Positions 1 through 15,403 of a stretch of DNA of 64,000 bases are shown here, piece by piece. A model generated the notes under the pieces. It had not been told where the DNA came from. It saw nothing but the letters and a program-made list of their open reading frames with translations, and did not search any database. This DNA comes from Candidatus Angelobacter sp. Gp1-AA117 (GTDB lineage: Bacteria; Acidobacteriota; Terriglobia; Terriglobales; Acidobacteriaceae), in NCBI GenBank assembly GCA_003223515.1, contig QHVI01000024.1, forward strand, positions 1-64,000. Reading direction: 5' to 3'. The position numbers were made by a program, and so were the translations under genes. Position 1 is the stretch's first letter; each line of letters begins with the position of its first letter.

Positions 1-967
1 ACTTTGCTGCGGATTCGCGCCCAAAAGAACGCAGGCGCTCAATCGTCTGCATCTCCGGGCTGAGCGAAGCTTCAGCGGCGCTGAGCAGAAACGCCGAGCC
101 CAGAATTGTCCCTGCGCGGCCCAGCGTCACATCCAGCTTGTCGCTGTCTTTGCTCGAAGCCTCAATGAATGCGGATGTCGCAAGCTGCTGCAGCGGCGCA
201 TTTCCACTTGCCTGCGCAATCAGCGCCTGCACTGCATAAACTCCGGCAGGACTGTGATACAGTGACGTCTCTCCCATTGTCTCCTTGGTTATGCCAATTT
301 CCTCGTTGTAGAAAGCGCTTTCATCTGGAATCTGGCGAACTGCCCTGCCTGCCCACGCATCGGCCAACGCCAGCAGTTCCGCATCTTCACCGGCACAAGC
401 CATGCGATACAGCGCGTAAGCAATTCCCGCCGCGCCATAATTCACAGAAGTTGAGGGTGCAGAAAGGGCTGGACCCGTCAGCAGTGGTCCCGATAAGCCC
501 ACCTTCTTCAAAAGCCTCTCTTTCACCTCCCGCAGACCGGCATCGGTGGTCGCCGCCTGGCAGCCGTAAAATGCGGGTTTGGCCTCGCGTGCTTCCTGCG
601 AGTCGGCAGCAACCAGCAATTGTGAGGCGATGAGCGACTGCAGAATCGGAAAGGCTTCTTCCAGCAATTGTTCGGGGTCTTCGTGCTGATCCCGGCTGTA
701 GCGGGCTACGGCTTCGGCAATCGTTTGTGGCTTTTCAAAATGTCGGACGAGCGCAGCCGTCTTGGGGTCAATAATCTGTGCTTGTGCGCGTGAATCAGGC
801 CGGCTGATGGCAAAATCGTCTTCCTCAGCCTGAATTTCCCGGCGGACATTCTCCGGCAGTTCGCGCATCGGCACGAGAATAGTTCCGGCAGGCAATACAA
901 ACGGACCAGTGAACGCCATACTTAATTTCCCATGATCGCCATACTTAATTGTGCCGGACATTTCCAT
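1..967 (-). CDS. LanC-like protein, 5' part (runs off left edge)
   Basis: The frame is open from ATG 967 to base 1, giving at least 322 residues, with no stop. I read three LanC-type glycine-rich helical repeats: NYGAAGIAYALYRMA (about residues 184-198), SLYHSPAGVYAVQALIA (about 236-252) and LGRAGTILGSAFLL (about 284-297). These match the Gly-Ala helix ends of lanthionine cyclases. The zinc-binding Cys/Cys/His residues would lie further on, outside the window. The first roughly 120 residues (PAGTILVPMRELPENVRREI onward) form a separate N-terminal domain that could be a winged-helix or leader-binding module; this is inference. ATG 919 is an alternative start, and neither start has a clear Shine-Dalgarno. 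In lanthipeptide clusters LanC catalyses Michael addition of Cys to dehydroamino acids. The divergent ORF at 1199-1345 looks like a substrate. LanC-like folds also occur outside RiPP pathways, so the function is probable and not certain. Confidence 0.7.
   Translation of the reverse strand, partial: MEMSGTIKYGDHGKLSMAFTGPFVLPAGTILVPMRELPENVRREIQAEEDDFAISRPDSRAQAQIIDPKTAALVRHFEKPQTIAEAVARYSRDQHEDPEQLLEEAFPILQSLIASQLLVAADSQEAREAKPAFYGCQAATTDAGLREVKERLLKKVGLSGPLLTGPALSAPSTSVNYGAAGIAYALYRMACAGEDAELLALADAWAGRAVRQIPDESAFYNEEIGITKETMGETSLYHSPAGVYAVQALIAQASGNAPLQQLATSAFIEASSKDSDKLDVTLGRAGTILGSAFLLSAAEASLSPEMQTIERLRSFGRESAAK
914..950. repeat. Direct repeat of 14 bp at the LanC-like start region
   Basis: CGCCATACTTAATT occurs at 914-927 and again at 937-950, a period of 23 bp. 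On the minus strand each copy contains an ATG. The downstream one (ATG 919) is in frame with the LanC-like ORF. The upstream one (ATG 942) opens a 6-codon frame ending at TAA. The period is not a multiple of three, so only one copy can initiate the long frame. It may be a simple duplication or a translational-control arrangement. Confidence 0.6.
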
Positions 968-1198
968 GAGTTCGATGCAAGCCGTCTACAAAATATTAAA
1001 TGTTTGATGCCACATTCATGCGTCAGAAGAATACCTTAACCTCTCGGCTGCCGACTCGTTGAGTATAAAAGAATCTAATAAAAGTCAATAAAAAGGTCCG
1101 ATTGGTAGTTATGCTGCTTCTGAGACTTTCCTTTTCTGTGATATCGGGTGATAATCTCCAAGAGAAAAATTCTGCTAGAGAAACGGAGAACAAAAGAA

Positions 1199-1345
1199 GT
1201 GAAAGCTACAAAACTCCAACTCAATCAAGAAACTCTGAAAAATCTCACCCAACATAACAAGCCGAACGCTTTCTGTACCCTGAACTCAGACCAGAGCTTC
1301 GTCAATACAGGCTGCGTACACACCCGGTGTACCTGCGCTAAATAA
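1199..1345 (+). CDS. Candidate class I lanthipeptide (RiPP) precursor
   Basis: A GTG at 1199 starts a 48-residue peptide. A GGAG lies 10 nt upstream; a longer in-frame GTG at 1148 would add 17 basic residues. The leader KLQLNQETLKNLT (residues 5-17) matches the K-L-x-L-N-x-E-T-L-x-N-L-T box found in class I lanthipeptide leaders of Bacteroidota and Acidobacteriota. The C-terminal part, from residue 26 (CTLNSDQSFV through TRCTCAK), carries four Cys and six Ser/Thr, the composition needed for lanthionine rings. There is no GG cleavage motif. The gene is divergent from the LanC-like gene and sits in locally AT-rich DNA. Seen: motif, composition and neighbour. Known: such leaders direct LanB/LanC enzymes. 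Inferred: this is a lanthipeptide substrate. The dehydratase and other cluster genes would have to lie left of the window. Confidence 0.6.
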   Translation: MKATKLQLNQETLKNLTQHNKPNAFCTLNSDQSFVNTGCVHTRCTCAK

Positions 1346-1466
1346 CAGCCAGACCTGCTCTTAGGGATTATCTTCAACTCTTAAACCGGAGGGCGGCCAA
1401 GTCGGCGCCCTGCTCTTCCCTGCCGACGTTTTCGGCGGCATCGGCAATTTTGGCGATTCTTCGGCT

Positions 1467-4400
1467 CTACCTCTTCTCTACCTTAATCACGTTGTCGTCG
1501 GGTTTGCGGTCGATCAACTTATTCAGAGGATCAATTCCGGCGCGGGCCGGCAGCTTGTCTACCACGACTGTGAAGTCGGCGTTTTCTTTGTCCATCTTTT
1601 GTTTTTGCAGATACAGATAATTCCCATCTCGGTCCAGCACTCCTATATCGACCAGATCATGGGGAGCTATCGGCTGCTCCTGTCCGCGGCCATCGGCGTG
1701 GGACTTTTTCAACTCCACTGCCATATGCACCTGGTACTTGCCGTCAGGCAGTTGCGAGTAATCTGCGGAGACTGCGCGGTTTTCGTACAGCGTGATGTTG
1801 GTGAAGAAATCGTCGTAGATGTACTGCAGTTCCGGAGGAGTCACTTTGCGCAGGTGATCCACCAGATCCTGGGAGGTGGGATAGGGTGGCCCATGGAAAC
1901 CATAGTCCTTGATGAAGGCCGCCAGCGCCTGGTTCATCTTGTCCTCGCCGATGTAGTCCTGAATGGCATACATGATCAGCGAGCCTTTGCGATAGTGGAT
2001 GTATCCCTGGCCCGGCTCCACGCGCAGCAGGGGCTTCTCTTCATTGCGCTCCTGACTCCGGCCCACCAGGTATCGATCCAGTTCGTGGCGCAGGAAATTC
2101 TTCATCGCCGCAGGGCCGAGCTTATGCTTCATCACCATCAGCGCGGTGTATTGGGCGAGCGATTCCACCACTGAAGTTGCGCCTTCGCTGTTAGCGGTGA
2201 CTACCTGGTGGCCCCACCACTGGTGGCCGACCTCGTGCGCGGTGACATAGAAGGGAAGATCGAGATCCTCAGGATTTTTGGGATCGACGCGGGTGATGAA
2301 GCCAATGCCTTCAGAGAACGGAATGGTGTTAGCCAGTGATTGGGCAAAGGTCTGGTAACGCGGGAACTCGATGATGCGAAGCTGGTGGAACTGGAATGGA
2401 CTGAAGTTGGCGCTGCAGTACTCAAGTGTAGCTTTCATGCTCTCGCGCATGCGCTCGATATCAAAGGCATGCCGGTGATCGTAATAGATTTCGAGGTTTA
2501 CATCCCTCCAGCGGTCGCGCAGCACCTCATATTTTGCGGAGTTCAGCGAAAAGCCGAACAACACTGGTGCATCCGTCTTGTAATGGAAGTAGCGGCGGCC
2601 ATCCTGCATCCATTCTTTCTGGAGATAACCCGGCATGATGGCGATCTGGTCAGGAGAGGTGCTCACGGTATATTCCAGGTTCACCCAATCGGCATCCTGC
2701 GTGCCGTAGTTGTTCTGGCGGGCGGCAACGTCTTCAAGCTTGGGAATCCGTTTTACTTTTTCCAGGCCGTGCCGGTGACGGGTGCTGTCATCTCCGAGTT
2801 CAACGCTCTGCTGATAGCCAATATGCGGAATATAGCCATCACTCAGGAAGCTGCCGTTATAGGCAAAATCAGTGTTCTCGCCGCTGTTGGCGAATCCCTT
2901 AAATGCATAGCTGATCGAAAACTGCAATGGCAAACGCGCATGCGGCGCGAGCGGCTGCGGCAGACGGTATAGGTAAAACCCAAGCTGGTTGTCTTCGATG
3001 ACCGGTTGCTGTCCTTCGGCAACCTGCAATTTCCTGAGTTCTATTTTGGGCCGTGGCAATGGGGCAAGGCCCTGCGGCCATAAAGTGATGGCGATGCGAT
3101 CGATAGGTTGATCCGTCTTGTTTTCTGTCCAGATTGTCCCCTGAAAATTGGCTGCCCTCTCTTCAGGATAAACGTCAATCTGCAGGTTCAGGTCAGTGGT
3201 GCGAGGCTGGGGCAAATCCATGTACTGCTTGTATTTCTTCTCATACTGGGCACGCTTGTCTTCAAACCGGAAGCTGGTCAGGTAAATGTTTCGGATATTG
3301 GTGTTGTAGAAGATGATCGCACCCGTAGCGGCAAACAGGATCACGCCAATTGCAATCCCGAGGCCTGAAGCAGTGGAGAGACGCGCCCTTGCCACTCTCA
3401 GGCGCTCACGCCAGCCGCTGCCCGTGCCGCGCACCCACAAGAGATTGGTAAGGAGCGCCAGCAGTATGGCGGCAATCCCCCAATAGACGTGATACCAGAC
3501 GAGCGGCTTCACGAATGACCCATAGCCGTTCATGTCAGAGTAGGTGTAGGCCGGCAGTTGTCCAAAGCGGAACATATAGTGCTGCAGCGGTGTATTCGGG
3601 AGCACGAACAGCACTACCAGGTAATACAGCACAAGGAGAAAGTGGCCGAGATACTTCTGGTTCACTATGGTGTGAATGAAAATGGCCAGCGCGCATATCA
3701 CCCACAGTATGAGCAGGCGATTGAGATATAGCTCGGTAAAGTAAAGTCCGAATTCAAAGTGATAGTAATGGTGGGCTATCTGGACAAAAACTCCTGCAGC
3801 GGTGACCAGTGTCACGATAATGACCTGAATCAGCATCAGGGCCAGCAGCTTGGAGGCGAATACGACCCAGCGCTGCACCGGCAGAGCATCGAGAATCTGG
3901 TTCACCCCCGCATCACGTTCACGCCACACCAATTCGCCCGCGAGAAATATGGTGATAGCGACGGCGAAGATATTGAATGCTCCTCCCGCAAGGGCAATCA
4001 TGCGATAAGTGACTGGATAGACAGGCGCTGAGAAGGGATCACCTATATCGAAAGCGATGACCAGCGCAAACACGAAACCAATCGCCATCAGCACAATGAA
4101 AATTACGTTTCGCACCACCTCGTTAAATTGCAGTTGTGTAAGAGAGATGAATTGCCGGAAAGAGCCAGCCGGTGAAAATTCCGGTAGGATTGCAGGCGTG
4201 GCCAGCACTTTGACCTGTCCGATATTTTCTGGTTCAGCCTTGACGCGCCGCCTTCCCGTGCCTGCAACGTGTGACATGGAAAAACGGGAATACGTTAGTG
4301 CCAGGGCAATGCCTGCAATAAGAAGCCAGAGAATACGGTTCCAGAGCAGAACACCGGTAGCCGTGAGCAGGCGGGTGTTGCGTTCATAGGGTGTCCAGTA

Positions 4401-5081
4401 TCGTGTGACCAGGTCAAAAGCATTGCTGCCAAAAGGATCGACCAGCGCTCCAATGGCATTGGCGCTTATATTGGTCGAAAGCTGCAGAGCGACCAGATAG
4501 CCAATCAGCAGGATGGCGCTCCCCGCATACACCGGCAGCATCTTCCTGGCGAACGCCGCTAAAGCGAAAAAGATCGTAGTGGTGATAAGAAGATTCGGGA
4601 ATACCAGCACCAGGTAAGGCAGAACGTACGCAACCGCATGTTCTGGCCCGAGACGGGTTGGATCAATCCAGTGGGTGTGCAGGCCCACCCATCCGCCCAG
4701 CGCCACTGCAGGAAAAATAAAAAATACGGTGGTAAGCGCGCCCAGGAACCGGCCAGCCAGGTAGTCGAACTTGCTGATAGGCGCCGTGTAGAAGAATGCC
4801 GTGCTGTTATTGTCAATGTCCTGATAGGTTGCCTGCCCGGCCATGGCAGCCGTAATGATCATTCCAAACAGGCTGATGTAGGTGATCATAATGGCAATGG
4901 CAAAAGGCGAGTTGAGCAGGACCTTGCCACCGGTTCCGAAGTCCACTCCGGCTCCGGGGAAAGCTCCTCCGGAGAGCAGCGCAAAAAGTAAGCCAAGGCC
5001 AAACAGCACCAGAAAATAAATATAGGTGGAGATGCGGCGCAGTCGCTGGCGAAGTTCGAACGCGAGAATGGTGAGTATCAT
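1467..5081 (-). CDS. ABC-2 permease fused to M1-family aminopeptidase
   Basis: This 1204-residue protein has two parts. Residues 1 to about 560 carry around a dozen hydrophobic segments in two blocks, as in an ABC-2 (NatB/Gld-type) permease. A further membrane segment near 575-600 leads into a C-terminal gluzincin domain. That domain has the zinc motif HEVGHQWWGHQ (about residue 945) and the third-ligand Glu in NSEGATSVVESLAQY some 20 residues on, both hallmarks of M1 peptidases. The start ATG overlaps the stop of the upstream ABC ATPase gene (ATGA, 5078-5081), so the two are translationally coupled. The peptidase domain should face the periplasm. Such permease-peptidase fusions are known in Acidobacteriota and Bacteroidota, but the transported substrate is unknown. 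Its 3' end converges on the candidate RiPP precursor 120 bp away. Confidence 0.9.
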   Translation of the reverse strand: MILTILAFELRQRLRRISTYIYFLVLFGLGLLFALLSGGAFPGAGVDFGTGGKVLLNSPFAIAIMITYISLFGMIITAAMAGQATYQDIDNNSTAFFYTAPISKFDYLAGRFLGALTTVFFIFPAVALGGWVGLHTHWIDPTRLGPEHAVAYVLPYLVLVFPNLLITTTIFFALAAFARKMLPVYAGSAILLIGYLVALQLSTNISANAIGALVDPFGSNAFDLVTRYWTPYERNTRLLTATGVLLWNRILWLLIAGIALALTYSRFSMSHVAGTGRRRVKAEPENIGQVKVLATPAILPEFSPAGSFRQFISLTQLQFNEVVRNVIFIVLMAIGFVFALVIAFDIGDPFSAPVYPVTYRMIALAGGAFNIFAVAITIFLAGELVWRERDAGVNQILDALPVQRWVVFASKLLALMLIQVIIVTLVTAAGVFVQIAHHYYHFEFGLYFTELYLNRLLILWVICALAIFIHTIVNQKYLGHFLLVLYYLVVLFVLPNTPLQHYMFRFGQLPAYTYSDMNGYGSFVKPLVWYHVYWGIAAILLALLTNLLWVRGTGSGWRERLRVARARLSTASGLGIAIGVILFAATGAIIFYNTNIRNIYLTSFRFEDKRAQYEKKYKQYMDLPQPRTTDLNLQIDVYPEERAANFQGTIWTENKTDQPIDRIAITLWPQGLAPLPRPKIELRKLQVAEGQQPVIEDNQLGFYLYRLPQPLAPHARLPLQFSISYAFKGFANSGENTDFAYNGSFLSDGYIPHIGYQQSVELGDDSTRHRHGLEKVKRIPKLEDVAARQNNYGTQDADWVNLEYTVSTSPDQIAIMPGYLQKEWMQDGRRYFHYKTDAPVLFGFSLNSAKYEVLRDRWRDVNLEIYYDHRHAFDIERMRESMKATLEYCSANFSPFQFHQLRIIEFPRYQTFAQSLANTIPFSEGIGFITRVDPKNPEDLDLPFYVTAHEVGHQWWGHQVVTANSEGATSVVESLAQYTALMVMKHKLGPAAMKNFLRHELDRYLVGRSQERNEEKPLLRVEPGQGYIHYRKGSLIMYAIQDYIGEDKMNQALAAFIKDYGFHGPPYPTSQDLVDHLRKVTPPELQYIYDDFFTNITLYENRAVSADYSQLPDGKYQVHMAVELKKSHADGRGQEQPIAPHDLVDIGVLDRDGNYLYLQKQKMDKENADFTVVVDKLPARAGIDPLNKLIDRKPDDNVIKVEKR

Positions 5082-6228: not shown

Positions 6229-6810
6229 GTGCGCCATCGTTACATCCTCTTTCATAAGCCTTACGGCGTATTAAGCCAGTTTTCGGGTGAAGACCACACT
6301 TTGCGGGACTACATTCCTGTAAAAGACGTCTATCCCGTGGGGCGGCTCGACCGCGACAGCGAGGGCCTTATATTACTCACCAGCGATGGCGAGTTGCAGC
6401 ACAAGCTGAGTGATCCCAAATTTGAGCATCCGCGCACCTACTGGGCGCAGGTCGAAGGCATTCCTGAAGAACAGGCATTACGCAAGCTGGAACGCGGGAT
6501 CACCATTGAGGGTTACACGACCCGTCCGGCGAAGGCGCGGCTTCTTGCTGAAGAGCCGCAACTGCCTCCGCGCAACCCTCCCATCAGGTATCGTAAATCT
6601 GTACCCACTACATGGATTGAGCTGGTGTTGACCGAGGGCCGCAACCGCCAGGTGCGCAAAATGACCGCCGCTGTAGGCCATCCAACCCTGCGCCTGGTGC
6701 GCGTGGCCATTGGCAGCCTGAGGCTGGAAGGATTACAGCCGGGAAAGTGGCGTGATCTCAACCCCAATGAACAGGCGGCCCTGTTCAGGATTGACCGCAA
6801 AGGACACTAA
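6229..6810 (+). CDS. rluE: 23S rRNA pseudouridine synthase, RluE-like
   Basis: About 193 residues of the RsuA/RluB/RluE family. [17 protein letters not shown] at the N-terminus, the catalytic-Asp motif [14 protein letters not shown] near residue 38, [15 protein letters not shown], and [20 protein letters not shown] near the C-terminus follow E. coli RluE almost motif for motif. As in RluE, there is no N-terminal S4 domain. RluE isomerises a single uridine (U2457 in E. coli) in the 23S peptidyl-transferase region; the exact target here is inferred. GTG 6229 puts the N-terminus where RluE starts. GTG 6199 is an in-frame alternative within a repetitive GTGCTGAGTGCT stretch. It is a single-gene unit, with no SD clearly deciding the start. 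Confidence 0.9.
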
Positions 6811-6964
6811 GGACGCAAAGAATTTATCGCGTTCATCCAGCAAAACCAGCGTCTTCAATCTTCAGCGAGCGAAGTTTTGCCGTTCCCGTTGTGATAAACT
6901 TCTGCCGCTTCCGGAGCTTTCGATGTTGTACCCCAGCACGTCCTAACTTTTTGGAGGACTTCCT

Positions 6965-9123: not shown

Positions 9124-9347
9124 TTATGGAGCGCAGCCCCCCTCGGCTAATGTCACTTACTTTACGGACACCATGCTGTATCCCAATGAGAGATGTCATT
9201 CCGAACGCCCGTTAAGCTCACGCGCGTTTTCTTCAGCGCGTGAGTAGGGCGGAGGAATCTGCCCCGCTGCTGCCCGCCCGTGCGAAAATTCTTTTAAATT
9301 CATGCTCGAATATGCAAAGTAAGTGGCATTGGCCGCCCTCGGCTGCG
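9124..9347. mobile_element. 224-bp MITE-like element, copy 1 (inverse of 16854-17076)
   Basis: A nearly identical copy lies in opposite orientation at 16854-17076. The ends are imperfect inverted repeats: AATGTCACTTACTTT on the left and AAAGTAAGTGGCATT on the right. Just outside them, CCTCGGC on the left and CCTCGGC on the right form direct repeats that could be a target duplication. The interior has an internal hairpin (CTCACGCGCG...CGCGTGAG) and no ORF. It looks like a non-autonomous transposable repeat. Confidence 0.7.
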
Positions 9348-9595
9348 GGGATAAATCTTTCGTGAGCCGAGAAGAATTTGATAAATAGTAATACATGAGG
9401 ACCAGAGGCCGCAGAGAAAGTAAAAGAAGCCGCGAATAACGCGAATCAGAGCCAATTTACCCCTTACTCATTCCTCCGCATTGTTATATCCAGAAATCTT
9501 GTCTTTAGAGAAAGATCTTTCTTCTTCGCTCCAAGGTTATCAGCGTACATCCGTTTCAATCAGCGTCATCAGCGGTAAGGTTTTGGGTTTTTATT
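9348..9595. other. Gene-free stretch with short dispersed repeats
   Basis: Between the MITE-like element and the YdeI-like gene I see only short low-complexity repeats of the kinds 'gccgcagagaaagtaaaag' and 'gcgaataacgcgaatcag' that recur between genes in this window. No ORF, RNA or promoter is convincing. Confidence 0.4.
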
Positions 9596-10376: not shown

Positions 10377-10990
10377 TCCACCGCAATGGGTGGGTCCTTT
10401 GTTGTCGGCTCCCTTCCCGCTTTGGTGGCATAAGCGCTAGCTTAAAAATACCTTTGGCGAGCGTCAAATGTGATCTCTGATCTCTACGCCGCTTTTGGCC
10501 CCTGCTTTGGGCCTTGGAAGAACTGCTCTAAATTTGACCCTGAATTTTGGTCTCCTGCCCCTTGACTTTCCATTGCTATAGTAATACTTTTACAGCGTCA
10601 CCCAGGTGGCGTGCTGTATCTGCTCTTTGAAAACTGAATATTGATAGGACTCCCCTGCCAAACCGGCAGTCGTGTGCCTTGGGTGGAGTGGGCTTGTCAC
10701 ACCGTCATGCGGCTCACAGATATTTTGTGGCCGCTGACGGTGTTGACCTGATTTCACCTGCAATCCTGATCTTGTGCAGGTTTGTGGAAGTGGCTCCCCA
10801 ATTCCGGTCGTCAGAAAGGCTGTTCCGCTTCTGTACCGGAACAGGAAACGGCAACCGGAACGCCGGATCTAATTGCAGCCAAAAGAGTTAACACCGTTTG
10901 TTCCGTGTTCCGCTTCATTTTGCCTGATCGATTGCTGACGGTCATAAACGACGACGCGGCGGAGTTGGGCTGGCAATTGGAAGCCAGGAA
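10377..10990. other. Gene-free stretch with a promoter-like site and hairpins
   Basis: No ORF looks real here. TTGACT at 10562-10567 with a 17-bp spacing to TACTTT resembles a sigma-70 promoter. Downstream are CTGCCAAACCGGCAG, which can fold, and 'ctctttgaaaactgaata', a type of sequence often seen upstream of structured RNA loci. A small RNA is possible but not shown. Confidence 0.3.
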
Positions 10991-11133
10991 CTCGCCCTTC
11001 ACGCGAAGCTGCCCGCCTTTTCCCAGAGTTTATGAACATCAAAGGGAATGCGGACATTGTCCAGTTCAGGCGGTCTCCCGTGCGCTCCAGCATGGTTTTA
11101 AAGGTTTTGGCAGGTGATTTGGCGGCCCGGCAT
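10991..11133 (-). pseudogene. Truncated, frameshifted copy of the YdeI-like gene 5' end
   Basis: The bases match 10172-10315 at high identity, for example CGCCCTTCACGCGAAGCTGC in both and 'tttatgaacatcaaagggaa' in both. They carry single-base deletions ('gacattgtcc' against 'gacaattgtcc', and 'gccttttccc' against 'gcgctttcccc'). Similarity stops after about 46 codons, where unrelated sequence begins, so no functional product is possible. Confidence 0.8.
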
Positions 11134-11144
11134 AGGTGATCATT

Positions 11145-12065
11145 TTATCGCTGCAGCGTGAGCTCGATCTGCCGCAGGATGTGGTGCGGCTTGGCCTCAT
11201 CGCACTCCATGAGGTACTCGTCCGAGCATGTTCGTTCGATGGTGTCCACAGGATTATTCATGGTAGCTGAAAGTATCTTGCCGTCGCTCAGGTCCACTTG
11301 AATATGAACGTCAAATGTCTCTTTTCCCACGGCAGCCACATATTTGCCTTTATCGTCTTTATGAACTTCCATCCAGTTATTGGGAGTGTCCGCCACGCGC
11401 TTGCGCATCCATTCCACGGGAACAGTAATCCCCGGCTGTGCGGGCGGTACATGCTTCACCAGCAGTTCGGCCACGTGCTCCGCCGTGTTTACCTTTTCGA
11501 GTGTGATGTCGAAATCGAGCGAATCTTCTCCCTCAAGCACGTACCGGCCATCTGCCCATGAGTTTGCTCCACCAACCTTCACAAAGGCGTGATCTCCGGG
11601 ATGCCCCAGAGTTCCCTGGCGGGCGGCAAGTTGGAGATCAACGTAGAAGGTCATCAGGTCGAGTACCGGTCCAACCAGCATGGGAACCTTCCCGAAATCG
11701 GGGATGCTCATGCCGTAATCGAGCGCCAGGGAGACATCCTGAAAGAAATTACTCGCCTCTGGCGGCAGCGGTACGTTCTTGCCATTCATGGTCAGGCCGG
11801 TCCAGGTGAACTCCTCAAAATAGGATCCTTCCGTGTTCCGCTTCACCACTGCCTTGGCGGTTGCCTCGTAGCGGCGTCCTTCATTCACGCCCTTCATTAC
11901 ATAGTTGAGTGTTTCACCTACGCGGTAACGCCGCTCCAGAATGTTGGACGCCGATGTGGGGGCAGGCGCAGGCCGTTGGGGTGTTTTATGCGTGGTCTGC
12001 GCATGAAGTCCCAGGCTCAGCCATAGAAAGCCGATGGTTGCGATCTTTATTGTGTGGTTAAACAT
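11145..12065 (-). CDS. Secreted protein of unknown function
   Basis: 306 residues with a signal peptide (MFNHTIKIATIGFLWLSLGLHAQ), then a Pro/Ala-rich linker and a domain beginning ERRYRVGETLNYVMKG. Opening with a 'Y-x-V-G-E-x-L-x-Y' strand recalls periplasmic beta-rich DUF3108-like proteins, but I cannot assign it. The start ATG 12065 has only a weak SD. The C-terminus HHILRQIELTLQR recurs as a decayed remnant at 10319-10376, so a relative existed next door. A periplasmic or outer-membrane-associated location is inferred. Confidence 0.7.
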   Translation of the reverse strand: MFNHTIKIATIGFLWLSLGLHAQTTHKTPQRPAPAPTSASNILERRYRVGETLNYVMKGVNEGRRYEATAKAVVKRNTEGSYFEEFTWTGLTMNGKNVPLPPEASNFFQDVSLALDYGMSIPDFGKVPMLVGPVLDLMTFYVDLQLAARQGTLGHPGDHAFVKVGGANSWADGRYVLEGEDSLDFDITLEKVNTAEHVAELLVKHVPPAQPGITVPVEWMRKRVADTPNNWMEVHKDDKGKYVAAVGKETFDVHIQVDLSDGKILSATMNNPVDTIERTCSDEYLMECDEAKPHHILRQIELTLQR

Positions 12066-12113
12066 GTTCTTACAGGAACGCTCCGGCCATGCGAATTTGC
12101 GTCAGGATTTGTC

Positions 12114-12779
12114 TCATGACTGGGTTCTGCGGCTCAGAAGCAGGGGAATATCTTTCCTGCGCACCATGATCCATTCGCTTCCCCGGCGCTTTTCATAAGG
12201 AACCATGCACACTTCGCAGCGCAGCCGCGTCTTGATAAGTGATACGGTAAAGCTCAGAAAGAGCAGTGAGGCCAGTGCGAAATATACCTTCTCGGTGCGC
12301 GGAATGCCCATTGAGCTGGGAATAAGAAAGACGGCGAATACAATCGTCGTCAGTGACAAAGCCATAATCGGTCCCCAGGTGCGGCCAGGATGATACAGCA
12401 CCAGGTTGACCGACTCCACCTCTACCACGCGGTCAAGCTTGCTGCGCTTGTACAAACCAATCTGGTTGTATTGAGAAAACCTGCCCAGGACTTTGGGCCT
12501 TTTCCGGCGGCGAAACTCGTAAATCAGAAGCACCAGTCCGAATACCATGACAGCAGCCGCACCAATATATTCAGCTCGTGAAGGCTTGGCCGGTTGCGTG
12601 AAGACCAGGCTTCCAAATAACAGCAACCCGAAACCCCAGTTCGCCGGTGCCCAGCCAAACGCCTGGGTAACTCGCGCGTTTTCCGGCAGGGACCCCAGGT
12701 CTTCAGGAAAGACCGGTGCAGGGCCTCCGGCAGTTGGATTTATCGGCATGCGCCGATTGTAGGATATTTCCTCAGTCAT
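12114..12779 (-). CDS. Four-helix membrane protein of unknown function
   Basis: About 221 residues from ATG 12779 (a GTG directly before it is also in frame). Hydrophobic segments are at WGFGLLLFGSLVF, YIGAAAVMVFGLVLLIYEF, IMALSLTTIVFAVFLIP and VYFALASLLFLSFTVSLI, giving two hairpins separated by a basic cytoplasmic loop RRRKRPKVLGRFSQYNQ. I recognise no catalytic motif. It starts 15 bp downstream of the stop of the secreted LprI-like gene and probably shares its transcript. Confidence 0.65.
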   Translation of the reverse strand: MTEEISYNRRMPINPTAGGPAPVFPEDLGSLPENARVTQAFGWAPANWGFGLLLFGSLVFTQPAKPSRAEYIGAAAVMVFGLVLLIYEFRRRKRPKVLGRFSQYNQIGLYKRSKLDRVVEVESVNLVLYHPGRTWGPIMALSLTTIVFAVFLIPSSMGIPRTEKVYFALASLLFLSFTVSLIKTRLRCEVCMVPYEKRRGSEWIMVRRKDIPLLLSRRTQS

Positions 12780-12793
12780 CACTACAAACTTTG

Positions 12794-13795
12794 CTATTGT
12801 TCAAAAAAGTCTTTGAGCATCTTGGTGCGCTGCTGGGTAAGCCATGTTTTCCAGCTATCGGCGCTTACCGCAGGATATTTCTTCTGGCCAAAACTGACCC
12901 AGGCATCGCGGTACTGAAGCCAGATGCGCTGTGTCGTCCGGATGCCCTGCTGCGTGACGGTGCCATAACTGAAGTCTTTCCGGTGCTGTATTTTGCCGTA
13001 AGCTGTATTCAGGCCGGCATCCGCCTGGCTGAATTGTGCAGCGGTGAAATGCGGAAGCTGTCCTTTTTCAAAGCGCTCAAGGGCATCGATAAAATCCTTA
13101 CGCAGAGTGGATTCCTCTCCCATAGCCATTGCCGCGCGGGCAGTGCCGGTTGCATCTACCTCGTTCTCGGCACGGGCCTGCACAAATGTATCGAAGGCCG
13201 GCTGCAACGTCTGCAATGCCTGCCTCTCATCGGCGCTCCATTGTGATGTGAGAGCATTCAGGCGTGCCTGGCGTTTGGCTCCATCTGCTTTTTCGTTGTG
13301 GCTGGCACATGCGCCCATCATGAAGCCGCTGGTGACATCGTCACAAACATCGAAATCTTCTTCAGGATCTTTCTTCATCGCCTGCAGGTGCGCGATGCGG
13401 CCGGCAATTTCAAAGGGTGCTCCTTCCACCTCACACGTGAGCCTGAGTGCGGCATCGAGGTTGCGCGTAGCGCCTTTCCCATTGGCGTAGACCATCATCA
13501 GGATGCCTTTACCCGCAAAGATCATGTCGGAATTGCGGTCCATCTCCGTATAGGCACACTTCCGCGCCTTTACCGGATCGGCAGGCTGGCCGATGCCGTA
13601 ATACAAATCTTCCGAGACGCATCCGGCCAGCGTCTTCGCTTCCTCCAGAGTTGGACGGTCATTTTTGGGCAGTTGGATTTTCATAAATCCTTTGCACGCA
13701 TTCTGAATTTCAGGCGGCGCATCGCTGAGCTGTGCCGAGGCCGGGATACAGAAGTACCAGAGGAGCAGGAGAGTGACCACGGTTCGAATTCGCAT
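12794..13795 (-). CDS. Secreted LprI-like (DUF1311) protein
   Basis: 333 residues with a signal peptide (MRIRTVVTLLLLWYFCIPASAQ). The N-terminal part has Cys residues and a Sel1-like stretch (KARKCAYTEMDRN, MMVYANGKGATRNLDAALRL). The C-terminal part, with TTQRIWLQYRDAWVSFGQ, resembles the Trp-x-x-Tyr-Arg-Asp-Ala core of LprI-type lysozyme-inhibitor domains. A periplasmic protein that blocks host or competitor lysozyme is the family expectation, but the match is short and the role is tentative. It lies immediately upstream of the membrane protein at 12114-12779. Confidence 0.65.
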   Translation of the reverse strand: MRIRTVVTLLLLWYFCIPASAQLSDAPPEIQNACKGFMKIQLPKNDRPTLEEAKTLAGCVSEDLYYGIGQPADPVKARKCAYTEMDRNSDMIFAGKGILMMVYANGKGATRNLDAALRLTCEVEGAPFEIAGRIAHLQAMKKDPEEDFDVCDDVTSGFMMGACASHNEKADGAKRQARLNALTSQWSADERQALQTLQPAFDTFVQARAENEVDATGTARAAMAMGEESTLRKDFIDALERFEKGQLPHFTAAQFSQADAGLNTAYGKIQHRKDFSYGTVTQQGIRTTQRIWLQYRDAWVSFGQKKYPAVSADSWKTWLTQQRTKMLKDFFEQ

Positions 13796-13967
13796 AGTGG
13801 GGACGAAGCATGAGTGTAGCAGGCTGCGTGAAATTCAAATCATCTCCTCAGGCAAGCCGGAATTGACGCTCTGGGGTAAGCACTGAATTCAGCAGTAAAG
13901 TCGCGGGGGGCGCGCCCATGGGCAGAAGAGCAGGCCCTGCGCGCCCCAGGTTATTTTCGCCCTGACC

Positions 13968-14429
13968 TCAATGCGATGTCTTTGTATCACCCGGTACAGT
14001 CTGGGTGTTCTGTTGCTGTACCGGTGGTGCGCCGCGAAACTTCTTCATCTTGTCGATAATTTCCCTTGCGACGCTGGCGTGGACCAAACCCTCAATTTGA
14101 TGCACCTCTCCGGACATGACTACCGTCTGCGTCTCACGGTCGGTTACGGCATAGGTAAAGATCGCGGTGAACGGGATGCGGCGAACGCGCACCAGCAGAT
14201 CTGCAAGGTCTTTTCTGTTGGTGATCTGCAGGTCCCACGCTTTGAATTCGGGATGACCGAGCAATGAACTTTCAAGCTGCTCGCGCTTCATCAGAAAAGT
14301 ATGCGACTCGACATAAAAACTTCTGGCCCGCGACACCAGTTCCTTGTTGTCGGGAATCCGTGAACTGCTTTGAGCAAAGCCAATAACGCTGACCGTCACA
14401 AGTAAGAAGAAGATAAATCTCTTGAACAT
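13968..14429 (-). CDS. Small secreted protein of unknown function
   Basis: 153 residues from ATG 14429, which has AGGAGG 9 nt upstream; the frame extends to 14510 without an SD. The signal peptide is MFKRFIFFLLVTVSVIGFAQ. The mature protein holds a basic helix (SRARSFYVESHTFLMKREQLESSLL) and a beta-rich core (FTAIFTYAVTDRETQTVVMSGEV), ending in a Gln/Pro-rich tail. No family is recognised. Confidence 0.7.
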   Translation of the reverse strand: MFKRFIFFLLVTVSVIGFAQSSSRIPDNKELVSRARSFYVESHTFLMKREQLESSLLGHPEFKAWDLQITNRKDLADLLVRVRRIPFTAIFTYAVTDRETQTVVMSGEVHQIEGLVHASVAREIIDKMKKFRGAPPVQQQNTQTVPGDTKTSH

Positions 14430-14592
14430 CACTGTACCTCCTGAAGCAACTGCGAGTATGGCATTGGGCCCTCCAGTTCGCGAGCGGCATTGCGCGGCAT
14501 AGAACGGCAAAATCAGCCTTTAGCCGTTAACACTTAGCCTTGAAAAAAACCCTGAGCTTTGTCACGTTGAGGCGCTCTTCTACGCCGAAACA

Positions 14593-14719
14593 TCTTCTTT
14601 GCTTGCGACGAATTCTCCGCGCAGCCAAGGGCGCATGCGGGCCATAGGGAGCAACACACCGCCAAATTCAATACACATCAACTACTTTTGTTACCTTTGC
14701 GTCCTTTGCGTCCTGTGCA
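14593..14719 (+). repeat. About 130-bp dispersed repeat, family B copy 1
   Basis: Similar copies are at 22221-22345 (inverted) and 55557-55688. Shared landmarks are TGCTTGCGACGAATTCT, CCATAGGGAGCAA, ACACCGCCAAATTCA and ACTACTTTTGTTACCTTT, ending in GCGTCCTTTGCGTCCT. It has no coding capacity and is always intergenic. Confidence 0.75.
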
Positions 14720-15403
14720 TTGCTAACTATAGAATTCTTTCTTTTCTGAGAAGAATCTAGGCTGCTTGGGCCAGCAAATGGTTCACAGTGGCATGGCGCG
14801 CCGCGAGGAGTGTGGAACATTTGGGACGAACTCGGGAATGCCTTTCATTCCACTGGCGTGGCCTGCAGCCGCCCGCCGGTGGGAGTCTACACAAACTACA
14901 TATTCCATATGAAACGGCTCTCCGCCACTCAATTGCAGTACGCGGATCTACAAGAGGGAGCGGCCCAGTGACGGCGATCGATCCAAGCACGGGCACGTTC
15001 AACACGCAGTCCATAGCTAATTTGAATGCCATAAAAGTCGGAATCAAACTGATGGGTAATGCACAGATGAACGACTACTCTGTTTACCCGATGATCTTCG
15101 ACTTGGCTATCGCTAGAGGGACTTACTTGACGTGAAGTGGTACGGTGGTGCGCGACGCACTGGCTCGTGTCGAGTAACAGACACTGATCCGATTTGGCAC
15201 TGGAGCCAATAGTGGCGGCCGTGTCTGTTCAGCGTATGAAGAACGGCATCCGCGATACTGCTAACGCGCCCGTTGACGATCCCCACAGGGGCAAGGTCAT
15301 GGAAATTTGGGCGGAGAAGTCATCGACCTGTTGGGGTGCTTCGTGGGTCGGCAGCGACAAAGTTCTGCCGCTGTCAACGATCTTTTAACTTTGATAAGAG
15401 TAA
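14720..15403. other. Gene-poor stretch left of tRNA-Pro, possible remnant
   Basis: One short plus-strand frame ending at 15135 (TGTFNTQSIANLNAIKV to LAIARGTYLT) looks protein-like but has no start signal and no family I recognise; it may be the tail of a lost gene. The rest has scattered stops. Its position next to a tRNA 3' end fits a site of past integration and decay, but I found no second copy of the tRNA end. Confidence 0.25.

Follow-up and report, generated by a model that had tools for sequence, protein, structure and literature searches.

A kinase-less candidate RRE-LanC cyclase gene head-to-head with one of about nine putative lanthipeptide precursor genes scattered over an acidobacterial genome

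The window analysed here comprises 64,000 nucleotides of Candidatus Angelobacter sp. Gp1-AA117 (assembly GCA_003223515.1, contig QHVI01000024.1, positions 1 to 64,000) and is the start of contig C128 in a genome of 6.48 Mb on 206 contigs. Two divergent genes lie head-to-head at its left edge. On the forward strand, 1199-1345 encode a lanthipeptide precursor candidate of 48 residues with a GTG start, recognised by its sequence and by a leader profile, and GGAG at 1185-1188 (+) reads as its likely ribosome-binding site. The leader covers about 1199-1252 and the core about 1253-1342 (+), and the C-terminal 30 residues hold four Cys and six Ser/Thr, so that the short ORF which an earlier sequence-only reading had placed opposite a LanC-like gene is present as claimed. 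On the reverse strand, 1-967 encode residues 1-322 of a 539-residue protein, hereafter RRE-LanC, and bases 48-700 of a second contig, C48, encode the remainder. The true start of this gene is probably the ATG at 919 (residue 17), as the N-termini of its relatives align from the Met at that residue, and the precursor gene begins ~230-280 bp away from it. The divergent intergenic region (920-1198, no strand assigned) is AT-rich by base composition, with 38.5% G+C in 968-1198 against 54.6% window-wide, and presumably houses both promoters; no match to the sigma-70 consensus was found within it. An 18-base direct repeat, present twice in 910-950 with 17 of 18 bases alike, spans the start of the RRE-LanC gene. 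A plasmid origin was considered and dropped, as there was no plasmid match. The neighbouring gene at 1467-5081 (-) encodes a protein of 1204 residues, apparently a fusion of an ABC-2-type permease with an M1-like peptidase, and adjoins its ATPase gene; it was rejected as an export or processing gene of the system, being non-specific because it also occurs in five of eight same-genus genomes that gave no RRE-LanC match.

The sequence beyond base 1 was traced through an exact overlap, the last 47 bases of the reverse strand of C128 being the first 47 of C48. On this contig of 4,049 bp the LanC gene ends at base 700, and some 640 bases with no obvious gene separate it from a gene for a protein of 783 residues (1338-3689); from 52 mechanical ORFs, the LanC end and this gene were accepted as genes. 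A family scan of the 783-residue protein gave NB-ARC, AlbA_2, and TPR matches, as in a STAND-type ATPase, and a weak PADLOC match (PDC-S50) together with a match to PHROG 24039 makes it a candidate defence gene. The expectation that most of the locus would lie to the left was therefore not borne out: C48 carries the remainder of LanC and the ATPase gene, which speaks against a gene cluster over its 4,049 bp. When C48 was read to its end, no dehydratase, transporter, or further precursor was seen, nor did it give a match in the genome-wide LanB search, and the LanB-type dehydratase that had been expected there is found on contig C144 instead. The gap behind RRE-LanC contains a 228-base stretch (C48 1048-1275) that is 99% identical to 9163-9389 of locus L089 on C185, ~400 bases from the precursor gene on that contig; this is the most alike pair seen in a genome rich in dispersed repeats.

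Joined across the two contigs, RRE-LanC is an intact frame of 539 residues without a stop. The Pfam model LANC_like (PF05147) matched residues 174-532 with an E-value of 3.2e-31, and the N-terminal part of this cyclase domain occupies 2-448 (-) of the window, with the AHG, WCHG, and LCCG motifs following on C48. The sequence-only reading had credited the window with a LanC-type protein: the LanC domain is real but only partial there, WCHG and LCCG being encoded on C48, and the window part on its own scored 23 bits, barely above the cut-off. The zinc ligands, whose loss would have spoken against a cyclase, are kept, with Cys replacing the usual His, as an alignment to LANCL1 reads Cys-Cys at the usual Cys-His pair. 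Judged by these ligands, the putative cyclase is a LanC of the CCG type, in which three Cys hold the zinc.

The N-terminal part of RRE-LanC is by prediction a RiPP recognition element (RRE) with a PqqD-like fold, covering residues 18-127 (587-916, -), an assignment based on an AlphaFold model, Foldseek, and VIA-align. The model of the first 139 residues had a pLDDT of 76 and a pTM of 0.69. In VIA-align it scored Z 9.8 against TigE (rmsd 2.7, 89 residues aligned), Z 9.7 against TbiB1 (rmsd 3.0, 87 aligned), and Z 8.8 against PqqD (rmsd 2.7, 91 aligned), and PqqD was also the best Foldseek match (E 2.4e-3). Entries of TigE, TbiB1, lasso B1, or MccB filled 11 of the 13 top VIA-align places (seven of them MccB), and the best structural matches comprised TigE, TbiB1, lasso B1, MccB, PqqD, NisB, ThcOx, and MibB, with GdmN and some others intermixed. 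TigE and MccB are proteins which I take to carry an RRE. Sequence models matched this region weakly (ThcOx, E 2.2e-4; PqqD, 0.0095, in one of seven), and a PDB profile search with it found no RRE. Neither a kinase nor a lyase was matched across the 539 residues by family models or by alignment.

Relatives of RRE-LanC were rare. At E ≤ 1e-8 they occurred in six of 396 genomes of the phylum, this one counted, and the proteins of the other five (out of 395) were all kinase-bearing; one further relative came from a Chitinophagaceae MAG (L027). Among 60 nearer relatives, G026 alone gave a match, a weak one limited to 80 residues (E 7.3e-5). RRE-LanC was aligned with seven proteins from six genomes (G272, G340 with two, G438, G387, G127, and L027), to which it is 26-50% identical over the compared parts, the closest being that of G272 with 50% identity across the LanC part. 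In all seven, an RRE-like N-terminus is followed by a kinase part, marked by HxDxxxxN and by DFG or something close to it, and then by a LanC part, the kinase being recognised by family models in L027 and G272 and by alignment motifs in the others. All eight aligned members retain HGW, WC(N/H)G, and LCCG, and just the kinase part is missing from the window protein: the insertion point in the relatives falls at about residues 141/142 (544-545, -), where G272 has a domain of ~280 residues. By this alignment, the window protein putatively belongs to an RRE-kinase-LanC family but is devoid of the kinase. A tree built from LanC domains gave no single closest sister for it, and parsimony suggests that the kinase was lost in the window lineage. 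Among NCBIfam models its best match was LanL, with 88 bits against a cut-off of 650, and likeness to the class IV and III enzymes LanL and LanKC extends to the kinase and LanC of its relatives; unlike LanL and LanKC, the window protein has neither lyase nor kinase and carries an RRE in front.

Queried with the window peptide, the genome yielded a second gene, on C31 (E 1.9e-4), and an indication of another on C22 (E 0.99). A leader profile was built from these three peptides, and later from eight leaders, and the eight-leader profile picked out nine genes in the genome with E ≤ 2e-5, on C128 (the window), C31, C22, C185, C168, C92, C173, C199, and C148. This count omits the matches on C2, C54, and C87; the frames of the weak matches on C2 and C54 were read and judged likely chance. 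The nine peptides have the leader KLxLxQETLxxL in common, followed by variable, Cys-rich C-terminal ends, and a Shine-Dalgarno-like stretch was seen by eye before each of the nine genes. Their last 30 residues contain 28 Cys, compared with a mean of 10.8 in length-matched random frames drawn from the same regions (none of 20,000 draws reached it). Against a profile of the other eight leaders, the window peptide scored E 0.0011 (database size fixed at 1e6; 274,494 bases of the genome searched), while the best frame outside the nine had E 0.42 in the same bases, which points to a leader match of more than chance. Leave-one-out profiles ranked eight of the nine above unrelated frames, the exception being C185 (E 0.36, best unrelated frame 0.21). 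Since the invariant leader residues use several synonymous codons (four to five for Leu, four for Thr), the leader similarity appears to be maintained at the protein level; likeness in DNA among the nine is short and mostly confined to the leader, C199 and C148 being the best pair with 88% over 50 bases.

No LANC_like or LanB match lies on eight of the nine precursor contigs, the exception being C128, and the genes around the other eight peptides appear unrelated, as judged from their first residues. The short ORF in the window thus looks like one of about nine solo lanthipeptide precursor candidates scattered over the genome. Where the sequence-only reading had proposed a check against family models, the outcome was divided: the LanC-like protein matches LANC_like, but the 48-residue peptide reaches no NCBIfam or Pfam cut-off. 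The same holds for all nine, none of which passes the curated class I leader models; two matched class I leader models weakly (13.0 and 15.7 bits, cut-offs 22 and 27), and the C92 peptide leans weakly towards a thioviridamide model. No NCBIfam or Pfam model for a Nif11-type leader ending in GG matched the nine peptides. The set appeared to be narrowly distributed, as the profile gave no match at E ≤ 0.01 in 60 related genomes (best 0.012, within a frame of 661 residues), with weak matches of up to E 3 in 17 of them, and none at E ≤ 0.01 in eight same-genus genomes. Non-conservation of the short ORF in relatives that keep the LanC-like gene had been named as a finding that would speak against the sequence-only reading: its leader recurs eight times within this genome, but across the 60 relatives and the 396 phylum genomes, the pair of peptide and LanC was seen in this genome only.

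The enzymes of class I chemistry are encoded elsewhere, with a LanB of 1089 residues and a LanC of 439 residues together on C144. Both the N and C domains of this LanB were confirmed (PF04738, E 1e-154; PF14028, E 2.9e-65), and the LanC beside it is a stand-alone protein of the CHG type. The 19 kb around the pair contain no motif-bearing small ORF and C144 gave no leader match, so a precursor adjoining LanB was not encountered; conversely, there is no LanB on C48 or C128. At 4207-4554 of locus L020 on C144, a stretch matches the 3' terminus of the nearby LanB gene (6642-6960) with 83% identity across 319 bases and seems to be a remnant of a second LanB copy. C109 encodes a class III-like LanKC of 904 residues (L022 6066-8780) with RamC_N, kinase, and LANC_like matches, and C180 (L021 5771-16376) encodes two LanB-N-like proteins of 883 and 863 residues, whose genes are 74% identical in DNA over 1975 bases. 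They flank a protein of 1766 residues that begins like an AMP-ligase, and this may be an unusual peptide or NRPS-like cluster. Loci with LANC_like matches above the cut-off were C144, C48/C128, and C109, and judged from these none is a LanM. HopA1 (PF17914), the criterion for class V, had no match in the genome at E ≤ 1.

The association between leader and LanB was then evaluated in the sample of 396 phylum genomes, with E ≤ 0.01 for the leader and E ≤ 1e-40 for a LanB like that of C144. The leader was found in eight and LanB in 30 genomes, six of which had both (one-sided Fisher p 2.9e-6, with the related genomes not being independent). The two leader genomes without LanB had one match inside a frame of 669 residues and one partial match, and 24 of the 30 LanB genomes had no leader match at E ≤ 0.01, including the same-genus G007, whose LanB is 50% identical. 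Nine LanB loci of other genomes were inspected, and a small ORF of this leader type with GG and a Cys-rich core lay nearby in four, at 1.6 kb from LanB in G421, 2.8 kb in G176, 5.6 kb in G430, and 6.5 kb in G109, the last found by motif and not by the leader profile. Five loci were without such an ORF (G007, G154, G301-C164, and G307; G402 has a looser one); in G307, a leader-type ORF and one LanB share a contig at a distance of 145 kb, and G301, an assembly of 500 contigs, has three on contigs other than that of its LanB. Five leader peptides from LanB genomes were scanned: three, one from G176 and two from G301, exceeded the NCBIfam class I leader cut-off, and those of G421 and G430 fell short of it by less than 1 bit. 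The link to class I pathways drawn in the sequence-only reading thus stands in part: the peptide behaves like a class I precursor and the genome holds LanB and LanC, but the LanC-like protein next to it is not a typical class I LanC.

Taken together, I consider it somewhat likelier than an even chance that a class I system serves the scattered precursors in trans, with RRE-LanC as a second, leader-binding cyclase. Here, the LanB of C144 would act on the nine peptides and dehydrate their cores in trans by the glutamyl-tRNA route, a mechanism that LanB is reported to use according to a published abstract, and the rings would be closed by the C144 LanC, the window RRE-LanC, or both. RRE-LanC, as a stand-alone CCG cyclase, would hold the leader with its RRE and would have been derived from the RRE-kinase-LanC family through loss of a kinase made dispensable because LanB supplies dehydration. 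If LanB took over this step, kinase loss is to be expected and therefore counts for RRE-LanC taking part, for which its intact frame, kept ligands, and adjacency to a precursor also speak. As with the direction of the kinase change, I infer the chemistry, the export, and the role of the product. In lanthipeptides, according to PMC12710340, the RRE recognises FxLD and tolerates LxLD in its place, and the RRE here may bind the present leader. Under such a scheme, a small group of enzymes might produce an entire library of peptides. Several findings count against it: the link between RRE-LanC and the window peptide is adjacency in one genome, the nine leaders are without the GG site of LanB-linked precursors elsewhere, and the C109 LanKC or the C180 LanB-N-like proteins could act in place of the C144 LanB.

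The most serious competitor holds that LanB and LanC of C144 alone serve the precursors in trans, and that RRE-LanC is a relic of a kinase-type system beside one of them. These two enzymes would suffice for class I chemistry, eight of the nine precursors lie away from RRE-LanC, and RRE-LanC has neither the kinase nor the partner ORF found upstream of its relatives in G272, L027, and G127; furthermore, the precursor candidate of G272 itself has an unrelated leader. A relic would not be expected to retain an intact frame of 539 residues with its RRE and all three zinc-ligand motifs, or to have a precursor of the set facing it at such short range. Random placing of nine genes would bring one within 1 kb of the start in ~0.3% of cases, which is not a clean test because the finding was chosen for that very adjacency. 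On balance I regard the relic explanation as unlikely, while giving it real weight.

Two further possibilities concern the partners of RRE-LanC and the nature of the peptides. RRE-LanC might act on the adjacent peptide in a split kinase-type pathway whose kinase and lyase come from other loci, such as the C109 LanKC; the kinases of all seven aligned relatives and the domain composition of the C109 protein would fit, but the leader matches LanB-linked precursors and the search with PF17914 came up empty, which makes this highly improbable. It also appears improbable that the short ORFs are other small peptides (a signal, a toxin, or another RiPP) with a common leader motif: although no family model passes its cut-off, and leaders resembling those of lanthipeptides are reported to direct other RiPP enzymes as well, their variable ends are enriched in Cys and Ser/Thr, their leader co-occurs with LanB, and the same leader is found near LanB in other genomes.

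The preferred reading, a trans-acting class I system with RRE-LanC, resembles the prochlorosins and synechococsins (ProcM and SyncM with ProcA and SyncA), which, in the accessible parts of PMC10783134 and PMC11251773, have a conserved leader, variable cores, scattered solo precursors, and a cyclase of the CCG type. In contrast to prochlorosin, the dehydratase here is a class I LanB and not a LanM, there are about nine precursors and not tens, the leader is short and without GG, and the cyclase is fused to an RRE. The likeness to class I pathways (LanB and LanC; NCBIfam lant_leader_L1a) lies in the presence of both enzymes and in a leader type matching that of LanB-linked precursors elsewhere in the phylum, whereas the precursors here are apart from LanB, their leaders are below the cut-offs and without GG, and there is an extra RRE-LanC with a Cys-Cys-Gly zinc motif. 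Compared with the RRE-kinase-LanC proteins, which retain the kinase, RRE-LanC also differs in its surroundings, given the upstream partner ORF in G272, L027, and G127. A more far-reaching version, which I hold only tentatively and at less than even chance, is that this is a class I counterpart of prochlorosin of independent origin, with a LanB acting in trans, many fast-varying precursors, and a CCG cyclase freed from its kinase and guided by an RRE.

Scattered precursors are reportedly served by cyclases of the CCG type, and all nine dehydratase-cyclase combinations are said to occur among predicted clusters, so that LanB with a CCG cyclase is by subtraction included (PMC11251773, accessible sections). 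If LanB and a CCG cyclase do form one working system, their pairing and the RRE-LanC chain would represent a novel design for an enzyme that generates lanthipeptide libraries. A 2023 paper describes, in its accessible text, the core enzymes of classes II-V as having no identifiable RRE (PMC10604976). A large survey (PMC7268733) sought precursors up to seven genes from LanC and dropped LanC-like proteins without a known dehydratase nearby, so it would have overlooked a system of this kind. A literature search, with most subscription papers outside it, returned no scattered class I precursors, no RRE-kinase-LanC, and no RRE-LanC in the text it covered. Should the preferred reading hold, lanthipeptide libraries with scattered precursors have arisen two or more times, starting from different dehydratases and with a CCG cyclase in each case; whether substrate tolerance is tied to the CCG zinc site, as has been proposed, could then be tested directly, and the kinase-less RRE-LanC would be a small leader-guided cyclase useful to peptide engineers.

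In G272, an operon-like run on its contig C1 (L114/L115, joined 10919-15240) encodes a peptide of 175 residues, a partner ORF of 407 residues, and the RRE-kinase-LanC of 809 residues. The peptide is a repeat-rich precursor candidate with seven CYASGG units, and the run looks like an RRE-bearing kinase-type lanthipeptide pathway. The pair of partner ORF and RRE-kinase-LanC also occurs at L027 3-3696 (the Chitinophagaceae MAG) and at L120 3528-6852 (G127). The partner ORF is conserved upstream in all three and its fold is without assignment; a by-eye guess that it is HopA1-like was rejected, having neither Pfam nor PDB profile support, and the single-sequence model reached a pLDDT of 35. In G301, two divergent class I precursor candidates lie head-to-head at 6820-7496 of contig C428 (L157), away from the LanB contig, and this pair indicates that scattered precursors may not be limited to the genome studied here.
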